Source of the DNA: Thuidium tamariscinum
Taxonomy: Eukaryota; Streptophyta; Bryopsida; Hypnales; Thuidiaceae
Direction of reading: 5' to 3'
Length of the DNA stretch: 64,000 bases
NCBI GenBank assembly: GCA_947034885.2
Contig: OX344755.2
Coordinates: 5,024,501 to 5,088,500 of the forward strand
The notes under the pieces are model-generated. The model was not told where the DNA came from, did not search any database, and saw only the letters and a list, made by a program, of their open reading frames with translations. The stretch's first letter is position 1; each line of letters starts with the position of its first letter. The translations under genes were made by a program, and so were the position numbers. Below, piece by piece: positions 5,147 through 64,000 of the stretch.

Positions 5147-5196
5147 TCCGTCGGTCAAGGCGCGATGGAGCAGCACGGGTTTAGCGTCCTACGAAT

Positions 5197-6752: not shown

Positions 6753-6899
6753 TTCGGCTGTGATTCAACTGCATTCCCACATCTTTTTAGAGCCAAGAAT
6801 TTGGCAGCATTCTCACATTCTTGAACAGAGGGCAACTCGAGATCCTTTCAAAGGAATCTTTCTAGAGAAGAGTTCAAACTCATATCCTGTTAAATTGGT

Positions 6900-10659: not shown

Positions 10660-10812
10660 GAATGTGCCACCTAAATAATCGTTGAGTTTTTCCTTCTTCT
10701 TTTTGGATTAAATAGCATCAATACCTTGGGACCACTATTAAGCTAGAAATTTACATCATCAAGCAATAATCATTGTAGGGTTTCGTTCTTCCCCACTGTC
10801 GGTTTTCTAAGA

Positions 10813-42510: not shown

Positions 42511-42810
42511 TTTGGAGTCTCTGATTGCCAATATGAAATCAGAATTTGTCAAAAAACAACAACTATGTGCAACAAATAACAAAATTCAGCGTTTCCCTCT
42601 GGAGTAAATCCATCCCGCTGGTCCCACTTCGTGAGACGCATTTAATGGTCTCCAGTTCACAATTCTCAGAACTTTGAGCTCAACCAAAGTTACAGTAAAG
42701 TGGGATTAAATTTTTTAACTTCCTCAATGCTAACTACCAATCCCTGGTTTCTAGCCAGTTGGCATTGCCTTCAGTCATGGGCATTGCAACATGATCACAA
42801 CTAAGGTAGG

Positions 42811-43052
42811 TACACCCAAAAGCGCCATCTACAGTGCACATATATTTCCGAAATCAGTCATGTTCACAGACTGTAGATGGCGCTTTCAAAAACAGACTTT
42901 GACTGTTAATAACTTTTGCATACGGTATCCAAATCCTGCGTTCTTTGGTGCATTGGAACATGCTTTCACTTGCCAACAAGACTATATAAAAATTTGAACT
43001 AATTAATATCAGGAACTAGGCTCAGTATGAATAAGTGGCGCTTTTGGGTGTA
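42811..43052. mobile_element. CACCCAAAAGCGCC element (mariner-like), copy 2
   Basis: The element is 42813-43050 (238 bp) between TA at 42811-42812 and 43051-43052, with 14-bp perfect ends CACCCAAAAGCGCC / GGCGCTTTTGGGTG. It is inserted in copy B of the cassette; copy C lacks it. An internal inverted pair CATCTACAGT / ACTGTAGATG gives secondary structure. Confidence 0.75.
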
Positions 43053-43442
43053 AGGTAGGACCACCCATTCCCGACTAGGGACCAATAACCAACCATATTT
43101 CCAACCATAGCAAAAAAGTGTTTTTTTCTCCATTTCAAAATTGGGACTTGTAAGTTATTGACATATGTTCCAATTTTGTGAGTCAGAAAGTAAAAAGCTA
43201 TAAATAAAAAGGTAGTTTTTGAGTGATTAAAGTCAGTGATCGGCAATAGGTCCGAAGCACTTTTTGCCATTCAAAATTCATAATTATTTCAATTTGAGTG
43301 ATAAAATTACCAAAGTTTTTGCAATCCTCCTCATTTCTATCGATGCACCTCTGAAAATTTTTACTTTGCCTTGTCCGATCCTAGATCATATCTCCAATTG
43401 CTTATTTGGTCGACTATAGGTGGTTCTACCTTACCTACCTTA
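43053..43442. mobile_element. GGTAGGACCACC-ended MITE abutting the previous one
   Basis: AAGGTAGGACCACCC (43052) is inverted at GGTGGTTCTACCTTACC (to about 43434), giving a roughly 385-bp element that directly follows the 42.8-kb MITE. Both lie in cassette B where copy C has no insertion. No coding content. Confidence 0.55.
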
Positions 43443-43637
43443 AAGCTAACCCTGTCTGACAATCAAAAATGCCAGACAGCCACACATGAAGCATCTGGCA
43501 AAATGTTTAATAAAAGTAGACTCATAACGCACATTATAAGGCTGTTCACACACTAGAGCCGAGACTGCGTCAGTACCAATACATCATAGAACTGTTCACT
43601 CCTACTGTGCACTGCAATTTCTTGAATAAGCTTACTG

Positions 43638-44865
43638 CTACTGTGTCTCAGTTGAAGACTTCGAAGACTCAGCATTGGCTTCCACATTGGCAGCAGCTTT
43701 GGTATCAGCTTTGGCACCTACAGGAGGAGAAAATCGTTTCCAATCAGAAACATTCCGCATTTTAAAGAAACAACCCTGCTTCATATTTTCACGGTTATGG
43801 TCATATTTGTTTCAGAGGCGGATAATGCAAGTGGGGTGATCAAAACAGCCAGGTCATTGTCTTCCTTGAAGAGAATTTTTACTCATTAACTCCAATCTGC
43901 TCATTCTAAGCCCTTCAATCAAATCAAAACTCTTTGATCGAAATGTTCTTAATTGAGTAGAACGCCTTGGCATTACGGTATGTTTCAAAAATGCTCTTGA
44001 GCCTCTCAACTTTCGAGCACTATGAAGTCCAAAAATGTGATACTCACGGTGACGAATGCTCAAAAAATTAGGATTGCTATCGAAATTTATGGGGTAACTC
44101 AAATCAGGAAGAGCGGTACAAGAAATATAGACATACCAAGTCCTAAGGTGATAAAGTAGGTAATATACAGCCTACGACTCTCCTCCAAAATTGAATTACC
44201 AAGCATGATTCAAAGAAGTCACGAGTGTTATGATTGTGACTCCAAGAGTCCCCTTCTAGTTGTACATATTTAGAACTCCCAAACTCCCCGAAATCCAGGA
44301 CTGGAGAGAGCCAAAGTAGTGGAATTTTGCCCATTCAACGAAACTGGCATTGAAGCTACCAAATAACTAACTTAGAGCAGAATTGGAATGTTCCGAAATC
44401 ATTCCACGAGAGTTTATAGAAAACATTTCAAGAGTTCAGTTTCCCCCAAAATGCGATCAGCTCGTAAATGCATGGTCGCTTTAAGGGGACTCTCGATCTT
44501 AGTAGAGGTGGTGGAAGAGAAATTTCCATACCTGATTTTGTAAAGAACCAGCCAAGAATGGAACCAAACCACGATTTCTTCTCAGCCCCTTTCCGAAGCT
44601 CTCTCCAGGCGAACTCGCCAGTCTCTTCGTCCTCGTAAATCTCAACTGCGTGAAGGTCTTGAATGACATCCGAACTCAACGGCCGCAGCTCCTTGTTGTC
44701 CGGCAGCAAAGTCAGCACATACTCGCGGTCAGTGGCGCTGCTGTCCGCCTTGATTGTCATGCTCTTCCCCGGCTCCAGCACTTGGAGGAGGCGGTAAATA
44801 TTGGAATTCCCCTCTTTCACTTGCACGTTGAAACGCGAATTGTTCGTCAAGGTGGTCCTCCCCAT
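43638..44865 (-). CDS. MGRTTLTN small protein, cassette copy B (2 exons)
   Basis: Exon 1 is 44865-44532 and exon 2 is 43717-43638; the joined CDS is 414 nt (137 residues, stop TAG). The donor ATCAG|GTATGG and acceptor CTCCTGTAG|GTGCC are strong, and the intron phase is the same as in A and C. Exon 1 has the conserved core (LEPGKSMTIKADSSAT, REYVLTLLPDNKEL) and a B-specific acidic stretch YEDEETGEFAWREL followed by a Trp/Phe-rich end. Exon 2 lacks the pentapeptide repeat and encodes AKADTKAAANVEANAES. Intact, so possibly functional although its upstream partner is broken. Soluble, with no signal peptide. Function unknown. Confidence 0.65.
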
Positions 44866-45019
44866 TTTGGCTGTGATTCAACAGCATCCCCACAGCTTTT
44901 TAGAGCCGAGAATTCAGCAGCATTCTCACATTCCTGAATAGAGGGCAACTCATGATCCTCGAAAAGGAATCTTTCTAGAAAAGAGTTCGAACTCAGATCC
45001 TGTTAGATTCGTTGAATGA

Positions 45020-45870
45020 CAATGGTATCGCTGGGGCTTAGCCTATAATCTCTTATCCATAGGACTCTTTAAATGTTCATCGCCAGTTTGGTGATATCAT
45101 GTTTAATTTGTTCAGAAAGAAATTGCCATGGCGAAGGCTATAAGCTTCTCCTCCATTAGACTTTCCCAGGTGGCCATCCATTTTGGACTGTGATCCAAGT
45201 GCATCCCCACAGTGTCTAATTAGCGAAGAATGCAGAAGCATTTTTGCATTCTTGAACGGACTGCAACTCATCCTCTACAAGAAACCCTTAGAAAAGAGTC
45301 CATATTGACATCCTGTTTAACTACTTCACAAAGATATCGTTGTGTTTCAGGTTATAAGCTCTTCTCCGATGGACTCTTCTACCCATTCAATTCTTCTACC
45401 ATCTGTTCAACTATCTTCTTTGACTATCATTATCACCAATTACATTATATTGGCGCAACTGTGGGCACCAAAATGGTGAAATTCATCTGCATGAAGCTCA
45501 AGAAACTAAGACTGGTATAGATTTACATTTCAAGCAGGGCTCCCTTGAAAGTGCGGGAGTCGTGGAATTCCACCAATTTAATGAAATTGACGTTCATTCT
45601 AATAACTTCATGGAAGCTTACACATGATTTGCTCAAAAAGGATCGTCTTCCTAGAGATTTTCTTATAGGGCAGAAGTACATTCAGGTTACTAGTATAACG
45701 ATGAAAGTAAAACTGAAAATAGGAGCTCCCACAAACGTTGGGGATTTTAGTAAAATTGGAATTCAACCCTAGTATCGACAAACATTGGGGATTCATTAAA
45801 TTAGGTTGCCGACCTGTCAAACATCATGAAAAAGTCTCAATTGATTCACACGAGCAAGGGTCAAGTACTC
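45020..45870. other. Conserved spacer between the two cassette genes, copy B
   Basis: It aligns with 6.9-7.8 and 61.8-62.7 kb. It includes the well-kept block at 45472-45520 (ATG-start frame on the plus strand, AG|ATGAATTTCACCATT on the minus) described under findings. Confidence 0.35.
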
Positions 45871-45949
45871 ACCACTATAGCCAGTGACCACGGGCACAGT
45901 CAATCTGTTCAGAGGTTCAGAGATCTGAATCACTGGGAGGAGGGGCAGG

Positions 45950-47656
45950 CGGTACGGTGCACCTTTATAACACAAAATTCTCCAAAACGAAATTGGGAAG
46001 AAGAATACTCCAAAGGCAAGTAAGGCTAATATGACGACCACAAAATAAAGCCAGGCGAGGTTTCTCTTTTTGACAACTTCGATTTTCGGTTAGTGTTGCA
46101 CTCTATCTCCACGTTCAACTGGACAAAATCAATATATTCCCTTGGGTCCTATTCCTCGAAGCAGTTGTCCCACTTGCACTGCAGTCTGTTTGCATACAAA
46201 AGCGAATCAGAATCAGAATCAAAATCAACTGAACCCTCCCACACCTGCAAATTAATTCCTGTGATTGAAATCTATACATTCCACAGACACTCGTAAACAT
46301 GCGAAACACACAGTAGAAGTGCTGCTTGCTAGAAACAGTCCTAGAGAATAAATTAAAGAACTAAACATCCTTCCAGAGCTAGTGAGTTCCAAGCCTTACA
46401 AGGTAAGGTAAGCCACACTCTATTCACAGACCGTGAAGGCTCGCTCCTCTTTATGGATGGTCTTCTGCAAAGAGCCAATTTGTCTCCACTTCTGTAGAAC
46501 TCCAATAGTACTGACCACCGAGGCCAGCACCGACAAGGCAATGGGGCTCCACTTGTTGTGGCAGTACAAAAGCTCGACTGCGACACGGCCGTGAGCACCA
46601 CCCCTTGGAACACGCTGACGAATCCGACCACCTGGTACACCTCGTTCTTCAAACTGGCCACCCGCTTCTTCTTGCGCTCCACCCGACGGTTGTACCACTC
46701 CTCCTTGCGGTTTCACTCCTGCAGCGCTTGCCGAAAATGGGATTCTTCTCAATGTCCAGCAGATTCTTTAACTCCTGGTAGCAATCCGGAAATTTGGGAC
46801 GCCTCAACTTTTTCGCGTTCACATAAGAGATCTCGTCTTTCGCCGTTTCTTCCTCTTCAACAAGTTTCCTTCTCGCCTCCACCTTCTTCTTTCTGGACAT
46901 AAACCGCCACAACCCAGCTCGCTTGGCAGCTTCAGTCCTCTGTTGGGCTTTAATCTCGCGTGGATCCTCAACTTGAATACAACGGTCGTACGCTTTCCGA
47001 AACACGTTCTCGTCCAGAACCTCCAACAGGCGCTGCACCTCCACGTGCACCTCGTTCTTCGCCGGCAGAAGCTCCTCCAGCAGCGCCTGCTTCTTCTTGT
47101 CCCGTTGCTGGCTAGATTGCAAAACACTCTCCACCTAATATGGAATCTCCTCGTCCCCTTCTCCCGCAGAAGAAGAAGCCCCGTCCTCCTGTTGCGATGA
47201 TCTTCGATTATCCTCTCCACTAAGCTTCTTAAGATACTTCACCTTTGATGCCGCATCTTCCTCGCCTAGTTCCACCACAGTCGCTTAAGTCCACCGCCTG
47301 CTCCTTCCCTCCGTCCAAGTGATGCTTCACGACGTTCACCCACCGATCGGCTCTGGGCAGCTCCGCCGACAGTTCCCGTTGCTGCTCGGGCGTCAATGCG
47401 AGTTGTGACGTCCCGGTCCGAGCTCTGGGAAAGAGCTGCTGATCCAGTCAGCCCACAACTGGTCCTGGATAGCCTTGCGACCGACGACAAGCTCCCGAAG
47501 CTCCTGCGACAGCGCCCGCCGTTCCTCCTGGTGCCGATCGTGGAGCTCCTGCAGGACCTTTTGATACTCGGCCTCCCTCAGCAAGTGCCGTTCCGCTTCA
47601 CGTTGCTTGAGGTCAATAAGCCGAGTAGCAGTAAGAGTGACTGGCTCTGTTGCCAT
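45950..47656 (-). pseudogene. Coiled-coil/membrane protein pseudogene, cassette copy B
   Basis: This is the most complete view of the gene's 5' end: ATG at 47656 (MATEPVTLTATRLIDL), a Glu/Arg/Gln-rich coiled coil (LQELHDRHQEERRALSQEL), then a frameshift near GPGRHN, more coiled-coil sequence, an in-frame TAG about 47139 where copy C reads on, a 1-bp deletion near PIFGK and another near the SQS motif. Exon 1 ends at ACG|GTCTGTG (46432). Exon 2 starts at 46185 after AAACAG and has a 4-bp insertion causing a stop. Hydrophobic segments (GFVSVFQGVVLTAVSQ; VVILALLAFGVFFFPISFW) remain readable. Broken by at least five lesions, so not functional as this protein. Confidence 0.8.
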
Positions 47657-47793
47657 GGATGCGAAGTTACCAGCCAGACTCCAGGAGCGTTGGTTAGCTT
47701 GGTGTCGAGTGGCGTGCAAAGTCCGTCAACCAGAGGATCAGGGAGCCGAGACGGCGGCTGGGCAAAATCAAGAGAAACTGTGGAAAGCGACAC

Positions 47794-48101
47794 TAAGGTA
47801 GTATGCTCTACAAGCGACCATTTAAGAGTTGATTGCCTTTGGGGGGAAGCTAAACTCCTTGAATCACTTTTCAATAAATTTTCATAGGAAGGGAAATGGA
47901 ATTGGCATCTAACCCAAGTTGTTTCATCTTTTTTGGACTTGTGTAGAATTAGTTATGAATTCTTAAAGTTCAAATGTAGTAGTTACTAAAAGTGACCACT
48001 TGGTGAATATATACACCTCTAGTACATTGTAGAAACCAAAATGTACCTATGTGTCATGATCACTTTTAGAATAGCGCTTGCTTTTAGAGCATACTACCTT
48101 A
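47794..48101. mobile_element. AGGTAGTATGCTCTA-ended mariner-like MITE
   Basis: The element is 47796-48099 (304 bp) between TA dinucleotides, with ends AGGTAGTATGCTCTA and TAGAGCATACTACCT (15 bp, perfect). It lies about 140 bp upstream of the start codon of coiled-coil pseudogene B. Its interior is homologous to 51.1-51.4 kb (TCTAACCCAAGTTGTTTCAT-like). Confidence 0.75.
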
Positions 48102-48340
48102 TGTCCTGCTCCCACTCTCCGAAACTATACCGATTGCTGAAGTCTCGACATGGTCGTCAAATGGTACGTAATTCGTCGTCAAATGCAGGTCATGAGGTTT
48201 GACTGCAAAATGGGGGGCGTTGCACGACGACTTGCCATTTGACGAGCCGGTGCACAGTCTAGCTGGTTCACTCGTGACCCGAGGTAGAACTAATATAAGT
48301 GTGGTAAAGCAATGATGTCAACATTTGTCAGGAGCACACT
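48102..48340. other. Possible promoter-side sequence of cassette B
   Basis: A moderate-GC stretch with inverted pieces GTCGTCAAATGG and CCATTTGACGAG (about 48150 and 48233). It precedes the coiled-coil pseudogene beyond the MITE. No TATA box or transcript signal could be assigned. Confidence 0.25.
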
Positions 48341-48371
48341 TTTTTTCTTTTTTTTGGAAACAAATGAAATC

Positions 48372-48489
48372 ATGAAGCACAATTCAATTTTTTTTTTTTT
48401 TTTTTTTTTACACAAAAGAAACCGAATTTCATTGCAAAGAAAAAGAATACAACGCCCAGCCACAGGTGGCCTGGGAAGAATGAAGCACA
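48372..48489 (-). mobile_element. 5'-truncated LINE insertion with 10-bp duplication
   Basis: On the minus strand the sequence reads GGCCACCTGTGGCTGGGCGT, TTGTATTCTTTTTC, TTTGCAATGAAATTCGG, then a poly(A) of about 20. This is a standard plant L1 LINE 3' end. A perfect direct repeat ATGAAGCACA (48372-48381 and 48480-48489) flanks it. Only about 85 bp of the LINE was copied. Confidence 0.8.
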
Positions 48490-50060
48490 TTTCCAATACT
48501 GCTAGTATGGTGGATACTTTCTTTTATTTATAAATTTAACTCTGAGGTGCTCTAATCTATACATTAAATTAGCATGGTATATTGTTTGTTTGTTTGTTTG
48601 TTTTTCCAGACTTTGGATTCAAGCCTATTACCTAGATAATAGCTCATTATCTAAATGTCAACACATGGCATAGAACATGTGCTATGAGATGGAAAAGATC
48701 TCTAAAAGCTTAAATTAGAGATGACAAACAAAAATAATCAAAGATAGACTACACTAAAGAGATCATGACTTAGAAGACTGTACAAATTAGGGTATGAGAT
48801 AGATATATATCTCTACCTCATTTCTTCCCTTATTTGCTACTATTTTTTTATAGTGCATATACCATATGGTATGATGCTCCAAACAAACTAATATTATGAT
48901 TTGAATTATCTCACATAAAACCAAATTAAATATTTTGGATATATAGGTTATATACCTTTCAAAATATTTGAGCCACTCTTTAGATGGTTCTATAAAAAAA
49001 TTTACAGTTGTTTTGGACATTCATTAGTCCACTGGCAGTTTAACATTCATTTTTAGCTTCTATGACACCCAAAATGTTCCCTGGCTTCAAAAGAATTACA
49101 GCTTGCTTTATCCTTACTAAAATCAATGAAACCAAGTACTATGGATGGGATGGCTGGATGGCTTAATAACATACCCACCATCAAAGCTGATAATGGGCAT
49201 AGCCACCAAAACTCAGCCTGCATGTACTGTAACAAGCTCTGGCATATGGTACATAAATCAAGAGGTAAATTCAAAATCAAACTTGGATGAAAATTTCAGC
49301 AAATTACCTTCATCTTAATCACAAGTGAGCCAGTAAATAAAGTCCTCTTCTAGTGAGAAAAGAAACACCTTCCTTGCAAGGAATGCTTATTGCTGAGGAT
49401 ACTGTATTACCAAGGGAACAATAGCTTTTTTCAATCCTGCAAGTTTTTGAGAGAACTGTAAAGCAAAGGACTAGCAAAGGATGGCGTTGTCACAGTCTTC
49501 ACAGAACAGTCAGGTCTCAAGTTGTGTGTATGTTTTTTGTTTATTGCTTGAACATGTTTGTGGATGGTTTATTCAAACTTTGAGTTTTCATGCATTTTTC
49601 CAAGTTCTTTTCAAGTGAAAACGATAGCAAGTGAAGTGGTCTGCAGAAACCTGGTACATCCTCACTGACTTCATTGTGTGTGATTTGTCTTTGGGACGGG
49701 TATAGGTGAGGACCACTTCCTCTCGAAAATTTCTTGGAGTATGTTGATTGAATAGGGATGTTTTTCCCTACTTCTCAAAGTTACACATGTTATTTGCTGC
49801 ATTAGATGGGTTAATATTAGTTACAGTTACTAGATTTCTTGGATTGGTAGTAGTCATATGTACAGCCCTTGGCATTACATTGGCACTAAATTTACTTCAA
49901 AGCAATGATCAGATTTTGCTTGAGACTCAGGACTGAGATTATAAAACAATGAGCCTCTTAAGTTTGATGTCTTGGAAAAAATAGCTCTCATGAAAAGTAC
50001 AATGTGATGGGATAGAAGATGCTAGATAAGTACTCTGTATAGAGATGTTCCAGAAAAGGT
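48490..50060. other. Spacer with a (TTTG)n run and one hydrophobic small frame
   Basis: A (TTTG)n run occurs at about 48584-48602. At about 49787-49936 (+) an ATG-start frame MLFAALDGLILVTVTRF then LGLVVVICTALGITLAL would make a membrane helix pair. It has no neighbours or splice context and I do not call it a gene. Nothing else is supportable. Confidence 0.3.
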
Positions 50061-50062
50061 TT

Positions 50063-50265
50063 AATTGTTTGTTTGTTTGTTTGTTACGTTGAGATCTCCC
50101 GGACCGTGAGTCCCCCGGGTGTGTGTTTGGTACCGTCAAAAAGCCCTCGGCGAGGAGGGGTGCACGGGCTTTGATTCATGGTGTTCCAACCTACGGCATG
50201 AAAGTTATTGAATTTTGAAGTTTCTATACATTAAAAAAATGAGACCGTGGCAATGGCACGGGCCA
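50063..50265 (-). mobile_element. Possible retroelement 3' part ending in (CAAA)n
   Basis: On the minus strand a GC-rich block (CTCCTCGCCGAGGGCTTTTT, CCCGGGGGACTCACGGTCC, GGGAGATCTCAACG) runs into TAACAAACAAACAAACAAAC. GC-rich body plus short-unit tail is typical of SINEs or RTE-type LINEs. No Pol III boxes were identified with confidence. Confidence 0.3.
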
Positions 50266-50579
50266 CCCTAGTTTCTATGATGAACACATGAAGGTCCATA
50301 CCTGCTGCCCTGTTCTAAATTTTGGCCTGGCCTTGGATGCCGGACGTGCAACTTTCATCCAAGCTTAGGCTGTGGCTAGAAACCGACCTCAAGCTGCCCA
50401 ATCCATCTGGTCTAAATTTGATAGAGCTTGGTTAAGATCCCCTGTTTTAGCCTACAGAATTGATAGTACTATCATTTGGACCCAAAGGGGTCGTCCCCCT
50501 TGACTTCTTTTTTTTCTAGTTCTAGCTGCTTTCAGTTCTTTCTTGGCGCTCTGTTCTCTTCAATTGCCAATCCTCATGG

Positions 50580-50665
50580 CTTGGTAGGTTTGTATGGTGT
50601 GTTTTTTTCTTTTTAATGCAATGGCTCGTCCATTTGTTCAAAAATAAATAAATAAATAAATAAAA
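50580..50665 (+). mobile_element. LINE 3'-end-like tail with (AAAT)n
   Basis: TTTTTAATGCAATGGCTCGTCC, then TTTGTTCAAAAATAAATAAATAAA. The layout is the same as for the other LINE tails; the poly(A) has evolved into an AAAT microsatellite. Confidence 0.4.
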
Positions 50666-50932
50666 TTTGGCCTGGGAATAGCCTGGGTGTTGACACGAGT
50701 TTTTTGACCTCAGGCACCTCAAAATTTGCCTAGGAACTTTACATATGCCACTTCTAACATTAGTCGTCTCCAATTGTCGTCATGAATACATACGGTGTCA
50801 GCACAAATGCACTGAAAACAAGCCAGACACCCCTAAAGAAAAAAAATTGGATGAAAAGACCTTGTTTTCCACCCCTAGTGACTTTTCATTTTAATTCATT
50901 GTCCATTTTGTGGACATTGATGCACTCCAGGA

Positions 50933-52020
50933 TTAACTACTAAAGAATTAAATTGCATTTTTTTTTAGCAGCATGGCAATTTGGGGCGCCTCACTATAAA
51001 TGGAACTTTTATTTATTTTTCTTTGAAATTTTCATACAAAATGTACTTGAGGAATAGCGTTAAAGCCTAACAATTTTCATAACTTTTGACTAAGATAGGA
51101 GGTCTATAAATCAACCATATAAAGGTTGGAACTAAATTTTGGGGTGGTGAAACATCTTAAAATATTTTTCAATAAAATTTTCTCGAAAGACAAAAGGAAT
51201 AAGCATCTAATCCAAGTTGTTTCATATTTTTTGGAGCTTTGTAGAATTAGTTACAAATTTTTTAAGTTGAAAAAAAGTCATCATTTGCAATCATCAATAG
51301 CAACCACCCCTTGAAATGTGCAGATTTGGTACATTGAAGAAAGTAAAATTAACCTCTAATTCATGTTTGCTTTTAATGTCCAATTGGAGTTTGAGCCTCC
51401 TAGCTCACATGGTTAAAAAACTATTGTAGAATTTATGTAATTTTCATTGATCTTTGGGCAGACTAAAGAGGTCAAAAATTTCTAAAAAATCCATTTTCTT
51501 AAGAAATAAAAATTTGAAATTATCTTTCTAAGATTTATACTTACGCAAAAAGATTTGGATCATTCCATTTTTATTGATGAAATGAAAGTTGTTAGGATTT
51601 TTAGTTTGTGGGCACTTATAGATTCTCTAGTTTGCAATAAACTTTGAAAGTCCTTCATTTAATTCAATTTTCAATATTTTTGAAAGAAAAATATTGGATG
51701 TAGATTGTTTATAATAACATTACAGTCATTTGAATTGGCATTTTTTAATTTAATAACTAAATTCTTTACAATTTAGTATTTTGAATCTTTTTCTATTTCT
51801 TACTACTTACTAATTTTTTCCTATATGTTGTATGATTCCAAATAGTCTGAAAATTGTCAAGCAGTAGCCAACTTGCCTTGAAGAATGATTATTAAGACTA
51901 ACCACCATTTAGGACATTTTTTTAATATAAATCTGACCTACTAAAGTATAGTTGCTTGATTTTTTGCACGACCAATTTTTTTTTATCAATTTAAACACTA
52001 ATATCTTGTAGTGAATGAAT
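50933..52020. mobile_element. TTAA/CCCCTAAA-family element, right end missing, with nested MITE
   Basis: TTAA (50933-50936) is followed by CTACTAAAGAATTAAATTGC and the family's GCAGCATGGCAATTTGGGG start. The body follows the 17.2-kb element to about 52015 and then stops. It is interrupted at about 51095-51405 by a MITE related to 47796-48099 (ends TAGGAGGTCTATAAA / TTTGAGCCTCCTAGC). Confidence 0.55.
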
Positions 52021-52288
52021 TCTAAGCAATGCTTTCCTTTTTTCTTGAAAAAAATGAAACACTTCAAAGTTCAAAGCATTTTCATCTGCAATAAAGTCTC
52101 CTTTGCTTGTATCAAGAAAAAAAAATTTGTATTTTCTAGTGATAAGTGAAGCTCATTATATACACGTAAGTTGGTCTACTTCCTAACACCTCATGCATAT
52201 ACAATGAGCTTTTCATCTACATTGAAATCTCAAACCAAGTTAAAAATACCATTCAAGCAATGAAAGGTAGTTTTCAAAAAATTGAAAG

Positions 52289-53576: not shown

Positions 53577-54357
53577 ATTTTTTGTAGTTCTATTTTGTAG
53601 CAAAGTAAACTTGATGTGGTGCACTACATTTTTCAATCGCAATTCCAATCCCTCTAAGAGTCCTTCATTTACCATTTTGCTATAACATAGATGACTACAA
53701 TACGCATTGGCTACATCTCAAAAGCATGCCAAACAATCTGCTTTTGCACCTCTATCATGTGCCAACCATGGAGTTAATCTTAGTAACATTGCCATCAATT
53801 TTGCAAAATCAGACTACAACATGAAGAAGTGGTGAGGCAATTACTTCTTGCAAGATGTAGTGGTGCACTCAAGATTCAATGCTCTACACTAGCAACTCCA
53901 TAAAATCCTTTGCTAAAGTTCTTTTTTTCACACCTCTCATTAGCCTCTACATCCTCCATTAAAGTCATAGTCGAATTTGACCAAGTTGGTGTGAATGTAA
54001 TATTGCATGCTACAAAGGCATCTATTGCTTAACAAATATACACTACTAGAAAATGATGTCCAAATCAACAAAAAATCAACAAATTTTTGTTAATTTGGGT
54101 ACTGTATTGACCGTTTTCACAAAATTTTGTTGATTTGGCACTAGTTAACAAAACAGTGACAAATTTTTTGTTGATTTGGGTAGTGCAATGTCCAAATCAA
54201 CAAAAAATTTAACACTTATTTGTTAACTAGGAATTTCAAAAGTTTCATATAAGTTTCTTCATTTGTGCAATGTCTAAATAACCGTGCTTGAAATTTTATG
54301 CAAAAACAAATGCTTCTTCCCAAGTCAATCATTCAAAATTCAGTGTTTTTGAACATC

Positions 54358-54706
54358 AGCAGACTTTGGTGGCCATTTTTTCATAGTAAAACAACTTTTT
54401 TGAGAAAACTTTAAACTAATGAAAGTTGAAAAATAAAATTATCTTTCATCTCCAAAAATCCGTTTGAGATTTCAAGTTTCCAATAAAAAGTTATGGACAA
54501 AAATCAGAGAAGGATTAAAGAGGACATTGTATTTGACATTTTAAGAAACCTTCTCTGAATTCTATCCATAACTTTTTATTGGAGACTTGAAATCTCAAAA
54601 GGATTTTTTTAAATGAAAGTTTGTTGTATATTCCAACTTTCATTAGTTGAAAGTTTTCTTAAATAAGTTTTTTTTCTATGTGTAAACGGCCACCAAAGTC
54701 AGCTTA
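54358..54706. repeat. Hairpin inside the CACTA element
   Basis: Arms of about 150 bp: CAGACTTTGGTGGCC at 54359 pairs with GGCCACCAAAGTCAGC near 54690, and pairing continues to GAGAAGG / CCTTCTC at 54504/54552. It is related to the hairpin at 12.96-13.34 kb (shared ATTTCAAG-TCCA--AAAAGTTATGGA). Confidence 0.75.
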
Positions 54707-54784
54707 TTTTAACATAACAAAGACAAACGAAAAGGAAGAAGTAGCTAAATTAATTCTAATTTCATTCTAAATCACTTGTGGTTA

Positions 54785-54950
54785 TACATGTTGTAGTGGT
54801 TTAGGCCTTTGGACCTCAACCTTGTGGTCCAAGGTTCAAACCTTGTGGACGGCGGCCGTCTGCGTGGCGGGGCTGCCTACGTGGCCTGCCCGCGTGGTGG
54901 GTTGGATTTTGCTGACGTGGCAGATGCCACGTGGCAGATTCTGATTGATA
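54785..54950 (+). mobile_element. Possible tRNA-derived SINE head
   Basis: TTGTAGTGGTTTAGGC resembles Pol III box A, and GGTTCAAACC about 35 bp later resembles box B, with tRNA-like folding between (TTGGACC / GGTCCAA). A GC-rich body follows (GGACGGCGGCCGTCTGCGTGG). It could be a SINE inserted in the CACTA element; no poly(A) or duplication was identified. Confidence 0.35.
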
Positions 54951-55129
54951 AAAAAAATTATGTTTTCAAAACTTTCTCATGAATGTCCAAATTAACAAAA
55001 AAATGAACATCCAAATCAACACTTCTCTGTTCTTGTAAGTCCGGGACAACACGTCCAAATCAACAAAACATATGAACAGTTTTCTGTTAAATTTTTGTTG
55101 ATTTGGACACGATTTTTCTAGTAGTGATA

Positions 55130-56631
55130 GAAGTGATGGAAGGAACAATACAACTTTAAACATGATAAGGGATGGGGTGTAGAGCAATTTTTTCAAAATG
55201 AGCTTAACAAGTAAAAAGTAGCATTAATTTCAAGGCCAAGTGGGAGTGTTGGTGGCAATGTTCTTATGCATGATTGCAAGATAGGGTTGTCCTATTCATT
55301 GCTACATAGAAAGTAACTAAGTTTCCATTAGTCATAATTTGTAGAGCATGAAGCCAAAGTACTTGGAATTTTAATTTCTATTTATCTAATTTGTCATACT
55401 TTGCAATTTAGGAGTTACAATACTATAGAACACCCAAAATTAATAATCTAGAGTTGAAAAATTTGCCACCTATTTCCACACTAGAGTTGCATGTACCAAT
55501 AAAAAAGAACCTTTAATTTTTTTTAATTTTGGCCTACATATGCATGCAAATAGAAGTCCCTTGCATACATCATTTTGAACATTGAAGATGGTTTTAAGAT
55601 CATTCTTTCAAATGGTGAAATCTCTTCACCATAAGGTCTTTCCAAATGATCAATTTTTAGTTTCTTAGAAAATTATTTTCCTATTTTTTACAAATTAAAA
55701 CATCATTTGAGTATCTATTTTCATATGATTTTTCCACTTTCTAGTTCTCTTACTTAGAGAGATTTTCTATGTTTTTCCTTCCTAGGGTCTCTTCTTCTTA
55801 AAGGTGCATACATTAAAATATATTTTTTAATCACATTTCAAGAAATTATTTTTCTAATTATGAAGTGCTCCCAAAATAATCATGAGTACTATTCAAAACG
55901 AGACCAAAAAAATGATAGGTGTTCTTTGCAATGACCCTAATTAGCTATTTTCTTTTGGTTACCATATTAAGTAGGTTTTTCAATAAAAGAGTTTGTTTTA
56001 TGTATATAAAAAAATGGATTATTTTCATTTGATCTTTTGTGTGCATTTTCTTTTATGCTATATCCACATGATTGACTTAATCCCTAAAGGTCAATTGTCC
56101 AATGAACATGTATTTGATAACCTAAGTTGGTTTTTATGAAGTCAATCTTGGTAAGATGATTACAAATTTTGGCAAGAGGTGTAAACATATCCCTTTAATA
56201 GGAATATGATTTTTTTCCAATAGGATACTTCGGGATTAGGAGTTATGTTGCCTTGCATTTTTTAGGCCTCCTATAGGTAATTTGGGCATCTTTTGCTAAA
56301 ATCCCATTGACTTTTGATTTTTGGCACCTAACTAATAAAATATGGCATACAATTTTTCAAAATTTTTTTTGTTAGCAAATCACATTCTAAAAGGGTCAAA
56401 TTTTATTAGCTAAGTGACAACTATTTTGAAAAAATATATTTTCTATTTTATTTTGAGGCCCTATTATCTTGCAATCTTTAATGTTAAAGTTCTTGAAATC
56501 TATTCCTACATATTTCAAATGTTATCTCTAATTTTTTACCATTTTTATTTGAAATAAAAAAAGGTTCCTCATTGTACAAAAAATCATCAAAAATTGGCTA
56601 GTGTATTGCCAATCCTCTTAATCTCCTTGCA
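55130..56631. other. AT-rich spacer with a fragment of the 9.1-10.7 kb element
   Basis: Positions about 55640-55940 match about 10140-10430 in the same orientation (TTTTCCTATTTTTTACAAATTAAAA; CCTTCCTAGGGT). The outer ends are lost. Nothing else is recognised. Confidence 0.45.
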
Positions 56632-57214
56632 TTAACCCATTAAGGACCGGTCGACCACTTTTGGGTTGATTTGAGGACTTTTTGTCTCATATAATTTGTA
56701 GAACATTTGATCTCAAAAAACTTAGAGAAGAACGCATTTAGAGTGTCTTTATGCGCATCTAACAAAACCAATTTCAAGAGAATGTGTGCAAAAATGAGTG
56801 AGTTGTGCTTGGCCAAACTTGAAATGGTCCAACCTTTCATATTGAAATTTTCAATGAAAAATGCATATTTTATAGAAAGGACAATTATGTGTGTATTTGA
56901 AATAATAAATTGAAAGGTTTTGGTCAATTTCCAGACAATATATTCAAATCTATATCCAATTGTAGCAAACCCTAATTATAACCAGTGCCAAAGGGTGTTT
57001 ATGACACATCAATGTTTGAAGAGTAATTACAAAGACATGAACCGTTGGATCACTTTTATTTTTTGTGTGGTTCAAGGATTTAACCCATGGAACTCATTTA
57101 TTCAATCCGATCTAGGATTACATCTTTCAAAAAGGCAAAAAATTGCACTTTTTGAGAATTGTGTTCAAAAACTACGTACGCCCCCTAAATCAACCACGGT
57201 CCTTAATGGGTTAA
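56632..57214. mobile_element. TTAA-bounded piggyBac-like element, perfect 14-bp ends
   Basis: The element is 56636-57210 (575 bp) between TTAA at 56632-56635 and 57211-57214. CCCATTAAGGACCG at the left is perfectly inverted at the right (CGGTCCTTAATGGG). This is the cleanest member of the TTAA set. Open frames on both strands are short and unlike transposase. Confidence 0.8.
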
Positions 57215-58118
57215 AGGGGGATTTTAGAGTAAGCTAGATTCCATATTTACTTTTGAAAATTTTCATGAGCAAACCTAACATCATATACAGTCATGTGAAT
57301 GGGAAAATGGTACATTTATATAGAACAAAAATTTTACTCAGAGAAAAGAAGTTGAAGTCTACTGATCTCGTTTCACAATGAAAAAAAATTATTTTTCTAC
57401 ATTTTCAATGTTATAACCTTTCAATCTATGAAGTCAAATGGGTTGCAATTTTTCCACACATAGATTTATTTGTTTGGTACACTTTTTTATATTTGGAATT
57501 CTTTTTAAATTAATTTTGGATTTTAAACAATGCATAAAAATGAATAGTTTTAGACTTTTCTTCTTCCAAAAATCGTCTATCTTCTAGGACTTTGCGACAT
57601 TTTAGTTGTTTTTAATAATTTCATATGGGATTTTTTAATTAAAATATGGTACACTATCAATCTATTATACTTCTAATCTTTCAATTTTTTTCCCCATATA
57701 TTTGATTTTGGCATTCAAAATGAATTCTTTTACTTTTGAGGAAAACTCAAAAAAATAAAGCTTCTAAAATTTAGTTTCTACTCTTCTTGGGAGATTTTTA
57801 AAAATTTCTAAAAAGAAGCATTTCATTAAAGTTTGAAATTGACTATGTTCTTAAATATAGAAAACTACAAAAATATTCTTTACACTAATTTTACTTCTAT
57901 TAGAAAAAAAATTCAGATTTTTTAAGCATGATTTGCATTTGATATGAATTTTCTTCATTTTTTCTTTGAAAATTCATAGTAACTTGAAATTTTCTTGGAA
58001 TTTTTTAGAAATATGTTAAACGTATGAATTCATCTTTGAAAGAACAAAAACAAAAGAAATCACTGATAAAGTAGTCAAGAAATGGAAGATACAAAAGTGA
58101 AAGAGTTTCAAGTGTGCT
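57215..58118. other. AT-rich spacer, nothing recognised
   Basis: No supportable feature. Confidence 0.35.
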
Positions 58119-58460
58119 TACAATAGAATCACCTAAAATGGTCAATATAAGCACTTGAGCATAGTTGGAGGTACCTTTTGTAGAAAATATATTTTTGTAG
58201 TATTAGCAATTGAAAATCATGAATTAAGAAAAAAATTAGATAAATTGGTTGGTTTTTATGAATTTTCAAAGTGGAACTACTAAAACTATCATGTAGCTAG
58301 ACTTGAAACCAAAATTTGACAAAATCAACAATGAATAAATCATAGTTATACAATGGGACACTTTAATGAAAATCTATAGACATAGTTAGAAGAAATCTAA
58401 AGTACATGGATGGATCCAAAGATGATTATAGGTGTTTTCACCTTGCATGGTCACTAGCTC
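58119..58460. mobile_element. TA-flanked mariner-like MITE, copy 4, inverted and degenerate
   Basis: Starting CAATAGAATCACCTAAAATGG after TA (58119-58120), it is the inverse of the right end of the copies at 0.6, 2.1 and 59.9 kb (AGTTGGAGGTACC, GTAGTATTAGCAA). The far end reads ATAGGTGTTTTCACC near 58428 without a clear TA. Confidence 0.5.
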
Positions 58461-58650
58461 TATTCTTTCAGGGATAAATCTTAGATTCTAAAAGTTGTGT
58501 TCAAGCAATTAATAAATTTCAATTCGTTTCAAAAACAAACAAAAAACATATGTACTTAGGATTAGCAAGTTTGGGCATAATGAGGCTTTAGTGTAACTTA
58601 CCTTAGCTATTTTTATGAATACAATTGGTGGTATCTCATGGACCATTGAC

Positions 58651-58880
58651 TTAATCCTTAAAAGACAAATTGGTGACTATGGAAATCATCCATTTTGATA
58701 CCATAGAAAACATTGGTATAAAAAAAATCAAAAAGCATTTATTAGAAGTAAAAGTACTATAGAAGATCTTCCCTTACCACCTTGAAATCTAAAGATGAAT
58801 CGTTGCATTTCTATCCCATACAAGAAAATTCTTTGTCATTCATTGAACACCAAACACTTGTCTCGATGTTTATAGTTTAA
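58651..58880. mobile_element. TTAA-bounded 222-bp MITE
   Basis: The element is 58655-58876 with TTAA at 58651-58654 and 58877-58880. It is a full-length, diverged copy of the 223-bp element at 28081-28303, sharing GATACCAT/GTAGAAGATCTTCCC-like segments and TTCTTTGTCATTCA. The ends have decayed (TCCTTAAAAGAC). Confidence 0.65.
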
Positions 58881-59204
58881 GAAAATGAAATGAGAAATGG
58901 CAACCCAATCCATAGAAACTCAACACAAAATCATTGATAAAGTTCCACACAATGACAAAGTTCCCTTTGATTTGTTCAAAAAACAAGACAATCATTGGTA
59001 AAACAAATAGAATACAATAAGGTATGCCCACTTGTGCATCTAAAATTCTTACCTATTAAAGTAGAATCTCTCTAAATTGGTTCTCTATAAGCCAATAAAA
59101 TTCTAATTTTTTTGTTGTCAAAAATTGTTTTTTTGAATCTTATTAACAACTATACAAAGATTTGAATGTACTTTAGCATACATTATTTGGACACCATGAG
59201 AATG

Positions 59205-59470
59205 GAAGACATTAAATCCTACCATTGAAGGTGGGTCGAGTAGGGTAGATTTACCTCAGGGGAAAATGCAAGAATTTTTTATTTCTTGAAAACGATTTTT
59301 TTTTGCCAATTCTAAATTCATATTTGCAATCAAAGACCCTTGATTAATTAGGAGTGATCTAGAACATACCCTAAAACATGACACAAAATAGGGGACTTTT
59401 TTCACTTTTATCCCAAAGAACCCAAAACTTACCTTGCTAGGCCACCTTCTATGGCAGGATTTAATGTCTT
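59205..59470. mobile_element. GACATTAAATCCT-ended MITE
   Basis: GACATTAAATCCTACCATTG then GAAGGTGG at the left is inverted at the right (CCACCTTCTATGGCAGG then ATTTAATGTC), about 29 bp with three mismatches, and similarity continues several bases outward. The target-site duplication was not resolved, so no superfamily is assigned. Confidence 0.6.
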
Positions 59471-59859
59471 GCCCGTGAGAGTAAGTTATGATTTCTTAAA
59501 CCGTTGCCTCTACGTTTGTCAAAAACTGACTCTAGGCTCACAAAAGCTTTCATATTGAGAGCAATATATATCCCTCTTACAGTAAGCCCTCAGACAATGA
59601 TACCCGACGTTGATTTTAGGTATGATAGTGATAAACTGGGGGCATAAATGCCTTCCCTGATAGATTTCAGTTTTTGGCATTCTCTTCAGTCATGGGCATT
59701 GCATCATGATCACAAGTTCCCAACCAAGAAAATCATCGAAATGCCATACAGCCACGCATGAAGCGTCTGGAAATATTATATTCAATAAAAAAGTACGTTC
59801 AGAACACACATAATTCAAGCCTATTCACACACTCCAGCCTTGGCTGCATTAGTAGCAAA

Positions 59860-60283
59860 TAAGGGCAAAACACTCATTCCCGCACCTGTTCCTTGCAGTG
59901 AACCATAGATTCACCCAAATATGTCCCTAGAGTGTAGTTAACCCCTAAAGTTCCATGACTATGTATTCACCAAAAATGCGTGTTTGTCACATGTGTGATT
60001 GTAATTTGCTGACACAATTGAAGGACACATAGGAAGATCTGGTTGGCTTAATGCTGATTTTTGCAAGGTTCAATTTTGGGGGCACCTACAGGACGGTTCC
60101 GCAGGTCTAGGGAGCCAACACTTTGAAAATTTGTAGAAATTACATACCGTGTCCGAAAAATCTACTTTTTTTTTAATATTCATGATTTTCACTCACTAAT
60201 ACTACAAAATATCATTATTAGAAAACTCTGCCTCCAACTATGCTGAATTCCTTATTTGGACGGTTTTGGGTGTTTCCACTGTA
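59860..60283. mobile_element. TA-flanked mariner-like MITE, copy 3, with empty site in cassette B
   Basis: The element is 59862-60281 (420 bp) between TA at 59860-59861 and 60282-60283. Cassette B has the uninterrupted site ...CAATACATCATAGAA with one TA at 43580-43581, while here the same flanks are split (GTAGCAAATA...TACATCATAGAA). This directly shows insertion with TA duplication. Confidence 0.9.
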
Positions 60284-60467
60284 CATCATAGAAATGTACA
60301 AGTCAAGGTCCTGCAATTAATTTCTCGAATACTAAGGTGGCGACTCGGCATTGGCAGCAGTTTGAGTATCAGTTTTGAGAGAAGTTCCTGTATCAGCGTC
60401 CTCAGGAGTTGAACCGGCTTCACTAGGAGTTCGGTCTTTCTCTTTGCGGACTCTCTTCGAGAGCAAT

Positions 60468-61682
60468 CTATTTGTGGGGATTTTCTTCGCAGGGATTTTC
60501 TTCGTGAGCAATCTCTTTGCGGGGATTTTCTTCGCGAGCAATCTCTTTGCGAGGATTCTCTTCGCGGGCAATCTCTTCACCGGGATTCTCTTCGCGGGCA
60601 ATCTCTTCACCGGGATTCTCTTCACGGGCAATCTCTTTGCGGGGAATCTCTTCGAGAGCAATCTCTTTGCCGGGATTCTCCTCATGGGGATTCTCATCGC
60701 CGACAATCTCTTTGCGGGGATTCTCTTTCAGGTCACTTGAGGTACCTACAGGAGGAAATTGTAGCCAATCAGAAACATTTTGCATATTGGATAAACAAAA
60801 TGCTTAGATAGACAACCCTGCTTCACATTCTCACGGTTATAGTCATATTTGTTTCAGTGTCGGATAATGCAAGTGCGGTGATCAAAACAGCCAGGTCACT
60901 GCCTCATTTGCTAGTTTGATGAAAATTATAGTCCATAACCCTTCAATCAGCTCATTCGAAGCCCTTTCATCAACCAAAAACTAGCTTTGATCGAAACGTT
61001 CTTATTTGAGTACAACGCCTTGGCATTACGCTATGTCCCAATAATGCTCTTCAGCCTCCCAACTCTCAAGCATTCTGAAGTCCAACATTGTCCATTTCTA
61101 ATTATGTATATTTAGGACTCCCATGCTGAAATCCAGGACTGGAGAGTGCGAAAGTAGTGGAATTTTGCCCATTCAACGAAACTGACATTGAAGCTACCAA
61201 AAAATAGAACAGAAGTGAAAAGTTCCGAAGTCTTTCCAGGAAAATTCATGGAAAAACATTTCAAGGAGTTCTGTTTCCCCCAAATGCGATGAACTCGTAA
61301 ATGGTCGCTTGAAATGGACCCTCGATCTTAGTAGAGGTGGTGGAAGAGCAATTTCCATACCTGCTTTGGAGAACACGCCACGAATGGCACTTCTCACTAT
61401 CCCTCGGAGGCTCTCAGTCTCTCTCGGAAACTCCATCAGGGCGAAGTCTTCGGAAATCTCAATTGCGGAAAGTCGTTGCAAGTCGACCGAAGAAAACGAC
61501 CCCAACTTCTTGTTGTCCGGCAGCAAAATCAGCACATACTCGTAGTAAATGGCGTTGCTGTCCGCCTTGATTGTCATGGTCTTCCCCGGCTCCAACACTT
61601 GAAGGGGGTGGAGAATATCGGAATTCCCCTCCTTCACTTGCACGTTGAAACGCGATTTGTTCGTCAAGGTGGTCCTCCCCAT
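60468..61682 (-). CDS. MGRTTLTN small protein, cassette copy C (2 exons)
   Basis: Exon 1 is 61682-61361 and exon 2 is 60745-60468; the joined CDS is 600 nt (199 residues, stop TAG). The donor GCAG|GTATGG and acceptor CTCCTGTAG|GTACC match copy B. Exon 1 encodes the conserved core (MGRTTLTNKSRFNVQV, LEPGKTMTIKADSNA, YEYVLILLPDNKKLGSFSS). Exon 2 is TSSDLK followed by 17 pentapeptides of the form E(N/I)(P/A)x(K/E), for example ENPRKEIAREENPGE: highly charged, probably extended or helical. The 5' leader (AATCACAGCCAAAATGG) is also conserved in copy B. It lies 1.06 kb downstream of the coiled-coil gene on the same strand. Function unknown. Confidence 0.65.
60471..60730. repeat. 30-bp (2 x 15-bp) in-frame tandem repeat
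   Basis: A GAGCA/GGGCA marker recurs at 60506, 60536, 60566, 60596, 60626 and 60656, an exact 30-bp period, each unit made of two related 15-mers like GGGATTCTCTTCGCG. As 15 is a multiple of three, all frames stay open across the array, which produces spurious long frames on both strands. Six 15-bp units occur in copy A (5205-5300); copy B has none. Confidence 0.95.
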
Positions 61683-62746
61683 TTTGGCTGTGATTCAACA
61701 GCATCCCCACAGCTTTTTAGAGCCGAGAATTCAGCAGCATTCTCACATTCTTGAACAGAGGGCAACTCAAGATCCTTCAAAAGGAATCTTTCTAGAAAAG
61801 AGTTCGAACTCATATCCTGTTAAATTGGTTCGATGAATAAAATATCGTCATGACATTAGCCTCTTAGCCATTAGACACTTTGAATTATCTCCCCCACTTT
61901 TGGTGGTATCATGCTTAATTAGTTCAGAAAGACATTGCTGTGGCTAAGGATATACTGCGCTCCTTCATCAGACTATCCCAGGTGGTCATCCAATTTGGGC
62001 TGTGATCCAATTGCATCACCACAGTTTCTAATTAGCGGAGAATGCAGAAGCATTTTTTGCATTCTTAAACGGAGTGCAGCTCATCCTCTAAGAGAAACCT
62101 TTAGAAACCTTTGGAGTTCATACTGACATCCTACTTTATTACTTCACAAAGAGATCGTTGAGACTCAGGTTATACGCTCTTCTCCGGTACACTCTTCTAC
62201 CCATTCAATTCTTCCACTATTCTCTTTGAACATCATTATCGTCAATTTCAGAAACACGTCGGCGCAATTCTGGACGCCGAAATGGTGAAATTCATCTCCA
62301 TTAAGCTCAAGAAACGAAGACGGGTACAGATCTACATTTCTAGCAGGGCACTCTCGAAAGTGCAGCAGCCGAGGAATTCCACCAATTTCATGAAATTGAC
62401 GATCATTCTAATAACTTCATGTAAGCTTATACATGATTTGCTCATAAAGGATCGTTTACATCGTGATTTAATCATAGGCAGAACTACAATCAGATTACTA
62501 GTGTGATTACTAGATGAATGTAAAACTGAGAATAGGAGTTTCCACAAAACATTGAGGAATGCGGATTTCAGTAAACTGGATTTTCAACCCTGGTATCAAC
62601 AAACATTGGGGATTCAGTAAATCAGGTTGCTGAACTTTCAAACATCGTGAAAAATTCTCAATTGATTCACATGAGGAAGGGTCTCAAGTGTACTCACCAC
62701 TGTCATCAGTGAACACGGGGACAATCAATCTGCTCAGAGATCCGAA

Positions 62747-64000
62747 TCACTGGGCAGGAGGAGGGGCACCTGATTTACACAAAATACTCCAAAAAGAAAC
62801 AGGAAATAACACTCCAAAGGCAACTAAGGTTAATATGACGAACACATAGTAAAGGCTTTTGCCTCTCGACGACTTCGATTTTGGCTTAGCGCCGCCCTCT
62901 ATCTCCACGTTCAACCGGACAAAATCAATTTCTTTGGGTCCTGTTCCTCGAAGCCGTTTTCCCACTTGCGCTGCAGTCTGTTTGCACACAATAGCGATTC
63001 AGAATCAGAATCAAAATCAACTGAACCCTCCCACACCTGCAAATTCATTTCTGTGATTGAAATCTCTACATTCCAAAGACGACCGTAAACATGTGAAACA
63101 CACAGTAGAAGTGCTGCTTGCTAGAAACAGTCCTAAAGGGGAAAAAAAACATCCTTTCAGAGCTAGTGAGTCCAAGCCTTGCATGGTAAGGTAAGGTAAG
63201 TAACAATATGTACAGACCCTGCTATCTCGATCCTCTGAATCTATGGTCTTCTGCAAAGAGCCAATTTGTTTCCACTTCTGTAGAACTCCAATAGTACTGA
63301 CCACCGAGGCCAGCACCGACAAGGCAATGGGGCTCCACTTGTTGTGGCAGTCCAGAAGGCCGGACTGCGACACGGCCGTGAGCACAACCCCTTGGAACAC
63401 GCTGACGAATCCGATCAACTGGTACACCTCGTTCTTCAAAATGGCCACCTGGTTCTTCTTGCGCTCCACCCGACGGATGAGCAACTCCTCCTTGCGATTC
63501 CACTCCGCCAGCGTCGTGCTGAAAATGGGACTCTTCTCGATGTCCAACAGCTTCTTTATCTCCTCGTAGCACTCCGGAAATTTTGGACGCCCTCTACGAC
63601 CGTCCACGAATTCGATTTCGGCTTTCGCTGAGATCTGCTGGTGGGCTTCAATCTCGCGCGGATCCTCAACTTCAATACGATGGTCGTACACTTTCCGAAG
63701 CTCTTTCTTATCCAAATCCTCCAACAGGTGCTGCACCTCCACGTGCTTCTCGGTTTTGGCGGCCAGATGCTCCTTCCACAGCGCCTGATTGTCCTTGTCC
63801 CGCTGGCTAGCTTTCAAAGAACACTTCTCACTAACCGGAATCCTCCCGTCCCCTTCTCCTAGTACCTCCTTCCCTTTCGAAGCAGCAGCAGAAGAAGAAG
63901 CCCTGTTCTCCTGTTGCGATGATCCTCGATTCTCCTCACCACTGATGTTGCCCGGCCACAACCTCCCCTCCTGCACGTCCCAGCAAGTGCGAGCAAGCTC
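62747..64000 (-). CDS. Coiled-coil protein with three hydrophobic segments, cassette copy C (5' partial)
   Basis: Exon 1 runs from the window edge (64000, in frame, 261 codons) to donor AGG|GTCTGT at 63218. Exon 2 is 62977-62747 after acceptor AAACAG, stop TGA; both exons keep phase 0. Order: Gln/Ser-rich linker; charged helical region (KHVEVQHLLEDLDKKELRKV, DPREIEAHQQ); RRGRPKFPECYEEIKKLLDI; RKEELLIRRVERKKNQ; then KNEVYQLIGFVSVFQGVVLT and SPIALSVLASVVSTIGVL as two hydrophobic segments; exon 2 adds SLYYVFVILTLVAFGVLF as a third. Probably an integral membrane protein with a cytosolic coiled coil. I do not recognise a named family; similar uncharacterised plant proteins are likely. A conserved GTGAGTA donor (62697) after the stop suggests a spliced 3' UTR. 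Only intact copy of three. Confidence 0.7.

Follow-up and report, generated by a model that had tools for sequence, protein, structure and literature searches.

We analyzed a 64,000-nt stretch of the genome of the moss Thuidium tamariscinum (the window, C7:5024501-5088500; the genome comprises 363 Mb in 19 contigs). The window carries three copies, A, B, and C, of a pair of open reading frames (ORFs), in which ORF1 encodes a coiled-coil membrane protein and ORF2 encodes a small protein. The original prediction had described each pair as two genes. Our analysis suggests, with a probability of roughly two in three, that each intact unit is instead one bicistronic transcription unit, the second ORF of which is reached through leaky scanning. 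The arrangement and spacing of the ORFs, the positions of the splice sites, the depletion of AUG in ORF1, and the co-inheritance of the pair can be read directly from the DNA. The spacing, the splice sites, and the AUG depletion favor a single bicistronic transcript, and the description as two genes is probably wrong.

In the proposed mechanism, one mRNA would hold both ORFs. ORF1, in two exons (approximately 395 aa in copy C), would encode a protein with a coiled coil and three predicted membrane spans, and ORF2 would encode a beta-sandwich protein of the DUF7748 family (approximately 110-200 aa). The two would be separated by a spacer of 13-161 nt directly, or of approximately 25-86 nt after the splicing of an intron that would begin just past the ORF1 stop and end just before the ORF2 start. 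Selection would have purged AUGs, whatever their frame, from ORF1 and from the mature spacer, and ribosomes that miss the ORF1 start would next encounter the ORF2 start. We infer co-transcription, splicing, the translation route, and the joint action of both proteins; our guess is that a membrane scaffold and a peripheral beta-sandwich partner would be made at a fixed ratio.

Pairing of the two protein families across the genome

The small protein belongs to the Pfam family DUF7748 (PF24928), a predicted beta-sandwich, and the proteins of copies A, B, and C all scored above the curated cut-off of 25 bits. The term DUF7748 was not found in the literature searched. The coiled-coil protein is predicted to comprise an N-terminal coiled coil, two membrane spans that close exon 1, and a third span encoded by exon 2; three of the four units examined by hydropathy analysis exhibited three spans, and helices were also predicted. 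Of 21 ORF1 members compared with Pfam, at most 2 matched any single family (best E value, 0.0029), and the pieces of the copy B ORF1 produced only Pfam matches below the cut-off. ORF2 matched only a domain of the DUF class, and none of our results specifically favors the defence or conflict role that the original prediction had suggested.

Genome-wide searches at an E value of 1 or lower returned 69 DUF7748 matches, 66 of them above the Pfam cut-off, and 71 matches to the coiled-coil family; after merging, these represented 68 and 63 loci, respectively. The cluster at C7 4.72-5.09 Mb alone comprised seven paired copies and two copies without DUF7748, and a DNA search with unit B recovered seven same-strand copies, including B, in that interval. 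The cassette had been described as triplicated, a description that these numbers contradict; the window copies are the edge of a large family of probable bicistronic genes and not a triplet.

DUF7748 lay within 2 kb of 33 of the 63 coiled-coil loci and was downstream and on the same strand in every one of the 33. These paired loci were spread over 17 one-Mb bins (15 with adjacent bins merged). Each family was also present on its own: 30 of 63 coiled-coil loci had no DUF7748 within 2 kb, and 33 of 68 DUF7748 loci stood apart. The divergence of the two proteins was correlated (Mantel r of 0.80 for 22 units and 0.57 for 14 units taken one per neighbourhood; p 0.0001). In a tree of 53 DUF7748 sequences, the paired and solo labels required 2 changes, compared with 16.9 in shuffles, and 20 of the 21 solo sequences grouped together. 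The constant order and strand and the correlated divergence strongly support a functional pair that has been kept together, as the original prediction had proposed. That prediction would have been undermined by homologues never being neighbours elsewhere; they are neighbours at 33 loci of this genome.

The 20 stand-alone DUF7748 genes that group in the tree mostly carry an SSDDCCD-like signature and an aromatic tail (e.g., C7:25.19-25.24 Mb and C2:37.88-37.91 Mb). Stand-alone DUF7748 genes occur in local groups, on both strands.

Spacing and splice signals between the ORFs

Spacing was determined in the 28 units that yielded a position for the third span as well as for DUF7748; five of the 33 pairs (C2:29.36, C4:31.05, C4:31.06, C5:15.943, and C5:15.984) had no third-span match and were dropped. 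In 14 units, the ORF1 stop was followed at a short distance by the ORF2 ATG (13, 15, 15, 15, 17, 26, 27, 41, 65, 65, 73, 79, 146, and 161 nt); 13 of these spacers were free of ATG, and the remaining one contained two. The other 14 units had long spacers of 295-1064 nt. In nine of the latter, a donor-like hexamer (GTGAGT, GTGAGA, or GTATGT) was present 23-54 nt past the stop, and a YAG acceptor was found at most 50 nt from the ORF2 ATG. When the last YAG acceptor before the ATG was used for predicted splicing, the retained spacers of these nine units measured 25-86 nt and contained 2 ATGs in a total of 468 nt, compared with 159 in 6765 nt of the predicted introns. In copy C, 34 of the 35 ATGs between the ORFs fall inside the predicted intron. 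The gap between the ORFs of the window copies, to judge from these sequence features, bears the marks of an intron within one transcription unit. A short spacer of the green algal type was present directly in 14 of the 28 units and after predicted splicing in 9 more, with 5 of the 28 left unassigned.

These distances bear on the explanation that the units are two separate genes copied together, in which DUF7748 would be driven by a promoter of its own within the coiled-coil gene, in the last intron or the last exon, and the transcripts would overlap. In its favor, a well-supported branch sets apart at least 20 DUF7748 genes that have no coiled-coil neighbour, and the 1.5 kb upstream of 10 of these genes contained 206 ATG and 246 CAT triplets and no common long ORF by eye; the DUF7748 family can thus be monocistronic. 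Spacers of 13-27 nt, which were observed in 7 of the 28 units, are nevertheless too small for a terminator and a promoter, and we consider this explanation unlikely.

A further alternative is that each unit is one gene and yields a fused protein through splicing across the ORF1 stop. The altered exon-2 frame of copy B, which is open up to the donor, is compatible with such a fusion, whereas the frame of ORF2 relative to ORF1 was 0, 1, or 2 and differed by locus. At C2:39.79 Mb, the ORF2 ATG is preceded at 18 nt by a TAA in the ORF2 frame, and the sequence in between contains no AG; splicing is therefore unable to fuse the ORFs there, and fusion is ruled out at the compact loci. We regard the fusion as hardly credible.

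Depletion of AUG in ORF1

AUG counts covered 23 paired loci and 17,637 nt of ORF1, with the start codon excluded; five of the 28 units, in which the coiled-coil domain was absent or did not reach 300 nt (C2:39.97, C6:7.446, C7:4.93, A, and B), were left out. The ORF1 start codons were chosen by us, mostly as the 5'-most in-frame ATG. The paired ORF1s contained 61 ATG and 199 CAT triplets, and Met accounted for 19 of 5879 residues, despite the membrane spans. Out-of-frame ATGs numbered 42, compared with 75.5 +/- 6.0 in within-exon synonymous-codon shuffles, and none of 1000 shuffles was as low, indicating that the depletion is not solely a consequence of the protein sequence. ATG was rarer than CAT in all 16 neighbourhoods, and exon 1 and exon 2 were each depleted; in copy C, the 957 nt of exon 1 that follow the start are free of ATG in all frames. 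The controls exhibited no bias (ORF2, 87 ATG and 81 CAT; intron 1, 183 ATG and 196 CAT). Exon 1 alone, which lies upstream of intron 1, contained 46 ATG and 133 CAT, a depletion for which a promoter internal to the coiled-coil gene fails to account.

The same counts were used for weighing a bicistronic mRNA on which ribosomes would reach ORF2 by reinitiating once they have terminated on ORF1, or by entering internally. The short spacers of many loci are consistent with reinitiation, and a scarcity of AUG near the stop would also aid it. Reinitiation is disfavored by an ORF1 of up to approximately 395 codons, on general grounds that are also discussed in PMC11892635. It would not require depletion along the whole ORF1, whereas AUGs were scarce throughout and not just near the stop. 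The sequence and length of the spacer, moreover, differ between loci, which speaks against both reinitiation and internal entry. This route appears quite improbable, and leaky scanning remains our preferred reading.

A purine at position -3 was present at 12 of 19 ORF1 starts, which were those of our own choosing, and at 26 of 28 ORF2 starts (p 0.02).

Loci without ORF2 as natural controls

Coiled-coil loci without ORF2 allow the depletion to be compared between paired and solo copies. Eight of the 30 loci without DUF7748 within 2 kb were measured, and they were less depleted, with 38 ATG and 56 CAT; their out-of-frame ATGs numbered 23, compared with 29.2 +/- 3.8 in shuffles, of which 59 in 1000 were as low. 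These counts tallied C1:30.03 and C1:30.06 as solo. When both were reassigned to the paired group, a post hoc step taken once a probable ORF2 had been identified at C1:30.03, paired loci held 63 ATG in 18885 nt and solo loci 36 in 4809 nt (p 0.0002).

Two copies at C7 4.97 and 5.017 Mb aligned with unit C on both sides but lacked the stretch bearing ORF2 exon 1. Their break points were identical, indicating a single deletion event, and in both the ORF1 stop is still followed by a donor-like site. Exon 1 of these copies contained 5 and 6 ATGs, compared with 0 in copy C and 1 in C7:4.72, their full-length paired relatives. In the coiled-coil tree, the deletion copies fell within the paired cluster; hence, the loss of ORF2 followed by a gain of AUGs is the simpler order. 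That AUGs are commoner where ORF2 has been deleted is a further point against two separate genes.

A donor-like site after the ORF1 stop was present in five of the eight solo loci, and four of these five were read further downstream. At the AUG-poor locus C1:30.03, an ORF was found behind a GTGAGT...TGTGCAG intron with the acceptor 15 nt before its ATG, and its product was weakly DUF7748-like (E value of 0.0066 in a search of four loci). The AUG and donor signature thus led, in this single case, to a probable ORF2 that the Pfam search had missed.

At two other coiled-coil loci without DUF7748, C4:9463870 and C4:9473497, the ORF1 stop is followed by a short ORF of another kind that is common to both (GFVCVRFV...VEAHQRH.ES). 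This ORF could be another second ORF or a product of chance.

State and coordinates of the window copies

The three same-strand copies were present where the original prediction had placed them, all on the minus strand, with ORF2 starting at 6752 (A), 44865 (B), and 61682 (C). The reported gap of about 1 kb was confirmed at 951-1064 nt from the first stop to the second ATG, as were the joined ORF2 lengths of 453 nt (A), 414 nt (B), and 600 nt (C, 199 aa); the length in C was obtained from a joined ORF model and those in A and B were read from the sequence. Repeat analysis revealed ungapped blocks with approximately 61-94% identity between copies that span exons, introns, and spacer, indicating that the pair was duplicated as one segment. 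The features are as follows.

63218..64000, minus strand, running past the window edge: copy C ORF1 exon 1, coiled coil and two predicted membrane spans; frame open, 960 nt from ATG to domain end, the sole ATG being the start
62747..62977, minus strand: copy C ORF1 exon 2, third predicted membrane span, ending in ILCKSGAPPPAQ and the stop; third-span profile match, acceptor GCAAACAG, borders inferred
61688..62697, minus strand: copy C predicted inter-ORF intron; GTGAGT 49 nt past the ORF1 stop, CACAG 5 nt before the ORF2 ATG
61361..61682, minus strand: copy C ORF2 (DUF7748) exon 1; PF24928, 46.7 bits
60468..60745, minus strand: copy C ORF2 exon 2, repeat-rich tail of EENP..EI units; 199-aa joined ORF, 15-nt repeat
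46429..47656, minus strand: copy B ORF1 exon 1, broken, borders approximate; three-frame translation
44871..45872, minus strand: copy B region matching the predicted inter-ORF intron; GTGAGTAC at 45872, CACAG at 44875-44871
44532..44865, minus strand: copy B ORF2 (DUF7748) exon 1; PF24928, E value 6.7e-17, 61.8 bits (scanned with the tail joined)
43638..43717, minus strand: copy B ORF2 exon 2, short tail; read from the sequence, total 414 nt
8303..8663, minus strand: copy A ORF1 exon 1 remnant, borders approximate; 5' half gone, frame broken
7815..8042, minus strand: copy A ORF1 exon 2, third membrane span; third span located
6758..7774, minus strand: copy A predicted inter-ORF intron; GTGAGTAC and CACAG
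6428..6752, minus strand: copy A ORF2 (DUF7748) exon 1; PF24928, E value 7.8e-13, 48.8 bits
5197..5324, minus strand: copy A ORF2 exon 2, repeat-rich tail; read from the sequence, total 453 nt

DUF7748 stands beside coiled-coil sequence in A, B, and C, but the coiled-coil ORF is intact only in C. There, ORF1 (approximately 395 aa, compared with 199 aa for ORF2) starts 174 nt beyond the window edge, at position 64174 (C7:5088674). Copy A has lost the 5' half of ORF1, with homology ending near 8663 and the frame broken. In copy B, three-frame translation revealed in-frame stops and frame changes, by which this copy is a pseudogene for ORF1; its donor sits upstream of the stop of the altered exon-2 frame, and copy B was therefore tallied as lacking a donor after the stop. 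The fast-evolving tail that had been noted is real. A 15-nt tandem repeat encoding the EENP..EI units builds the tail exon in C (60407-60766) and, in a shorter form, in A (5181-5300); repeat analysis reported none in copy B.

Beside copy B, a repeat of approximately 385 nt at 43051-43434 has at least 33 other matches on C1-C10 with 92-98% identity; by eye, it is a short inverted-terminal element with AAGGTAG ends that sits within another element. A second element-like stretch at 47792-48105, with inverted ends aaggtagtatgctct and agagcatactacctt, lies by eye approximately 140 nt upstream of the copy B ORF1 start and may disturb the promoter of this copy. On the plus strand, an ORF at 10811-11344 carries a CCSKC motif and resembles, by eye, heavy-metal-associated plant proteins; the sole match of this frame in a Pfam scan was sub-threshold and unrelated.

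Discussion

Several observations weigh against leaky scanning of a bicistronic mRNA. The hexamer pattern found no donor in 5 of the 14 long-spacer units (C2:29.340, C2:29.347, C7:4.963, B, and C8:8.305). Some paired loci retain ATGs in exon 1 (seven in C2:39.80, seven in C6:7.455, and six in C5:4.04), and the measured solo copies are themselves rather Met-poor (0.74%, compared with 0.32% in paired copies). The ORF1 start context is only partly weak, the difference from ORF2 starts being modest. Three of the four solo loci read downstream held no ORF2, two of them through the shared deletion and C6:7.46 with nothing found. The ORF2s of the cluster are interrupted by a later intron, and the mRNA could for that reason be subject to nonsense-mediated decay. 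Family members are related; thus, the loci are not fully independent. ORF1 is longer than ORF2, the reverse of a green algal pattern that is typical there but inessential (PMC11892635). In Arabidopsis, readthrough mRNAs undergo nonsense-mediated decay, and translation of the second ORF is rare (PMC9768141).

According to PMC11892635, Duenas and colleagues demonstrated leaky scanning by mutation at nuclear bicistronic loci of the green algae Chlamydomonas and Auxenochlorella. Like these, the moss loci have two independent ORFs, a short spacer, any relative frame, and AUG depletion before ORF2. The algal loci, as described there, exhibit a stronger ORF2 start context, whereas the difference in the moss family is modest and depends on ORF1 starts of our choosing; they also mostly combine unrelated functions and have a short ORF1 (median 357 and 291 nt) and a long ORF2. 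The moss loci, by contrast, form one expanded family with a long membrane-protein ORF1, a short ORF2, and sometimes a predicted intron between them. The Arabidopsis CDC26-TTM3 bicistron and Drosophila stoned/Snapin yield two proteins per nuclear mRNA, as proposed for the moss family, and the first ORF of the Drosophila cases is AUG-poor, as in the moss family; the same source describes these as single loci, whereas the moss has a lineage-expanded family of dozens. In the Arabidopsis readthrough transcripts of PMC9768141, intergenic splicing joins a first and a second gene into one mRNA, as predicted for some of the moss loci, but the moss ORF1, unlike these, exhibits selection for ribosome passage. 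A radiated plant family with leaky-scanned bicistrons and a long, Met-poor membrane-protein ORF1 was not found in the literature searched. Leaky-scanned bicistronic genes are already known from green algae; on our best reading, the moss loci are an expanded plant family of such genes.

Plant nuclear genes are generally held to yield one protein per mRNA, with few exceptions. We lean, if slightly, toward the broader proposal that a multigene family with dozens of members across many chromosomes has radiated in an obligately bicistronic form, that ORF1 was re-coded to be nearly Met-free, allowing ribosomes to scan through as many as some 400 codons to reach ORF2, and that copies losing ORF2 regain AUGs; the ORF2-deleted copies serve as natural controls. 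The combination of AUG depletion with a donor after the stop offers a simple genome-scale route to further cases, and annotation that allows each transcript a single ORF would probably divide such loci or call them wrongly. The function of DUF7748 and its unnamed membrane partner becomes testable as a pair. If our reading is true, leaky scanning of long ORFs would be an evolved expression system in a land plant; if it is also common to other mosses, bicistronic leaky-scanned genes would be an established mode of gene organization in land plants.

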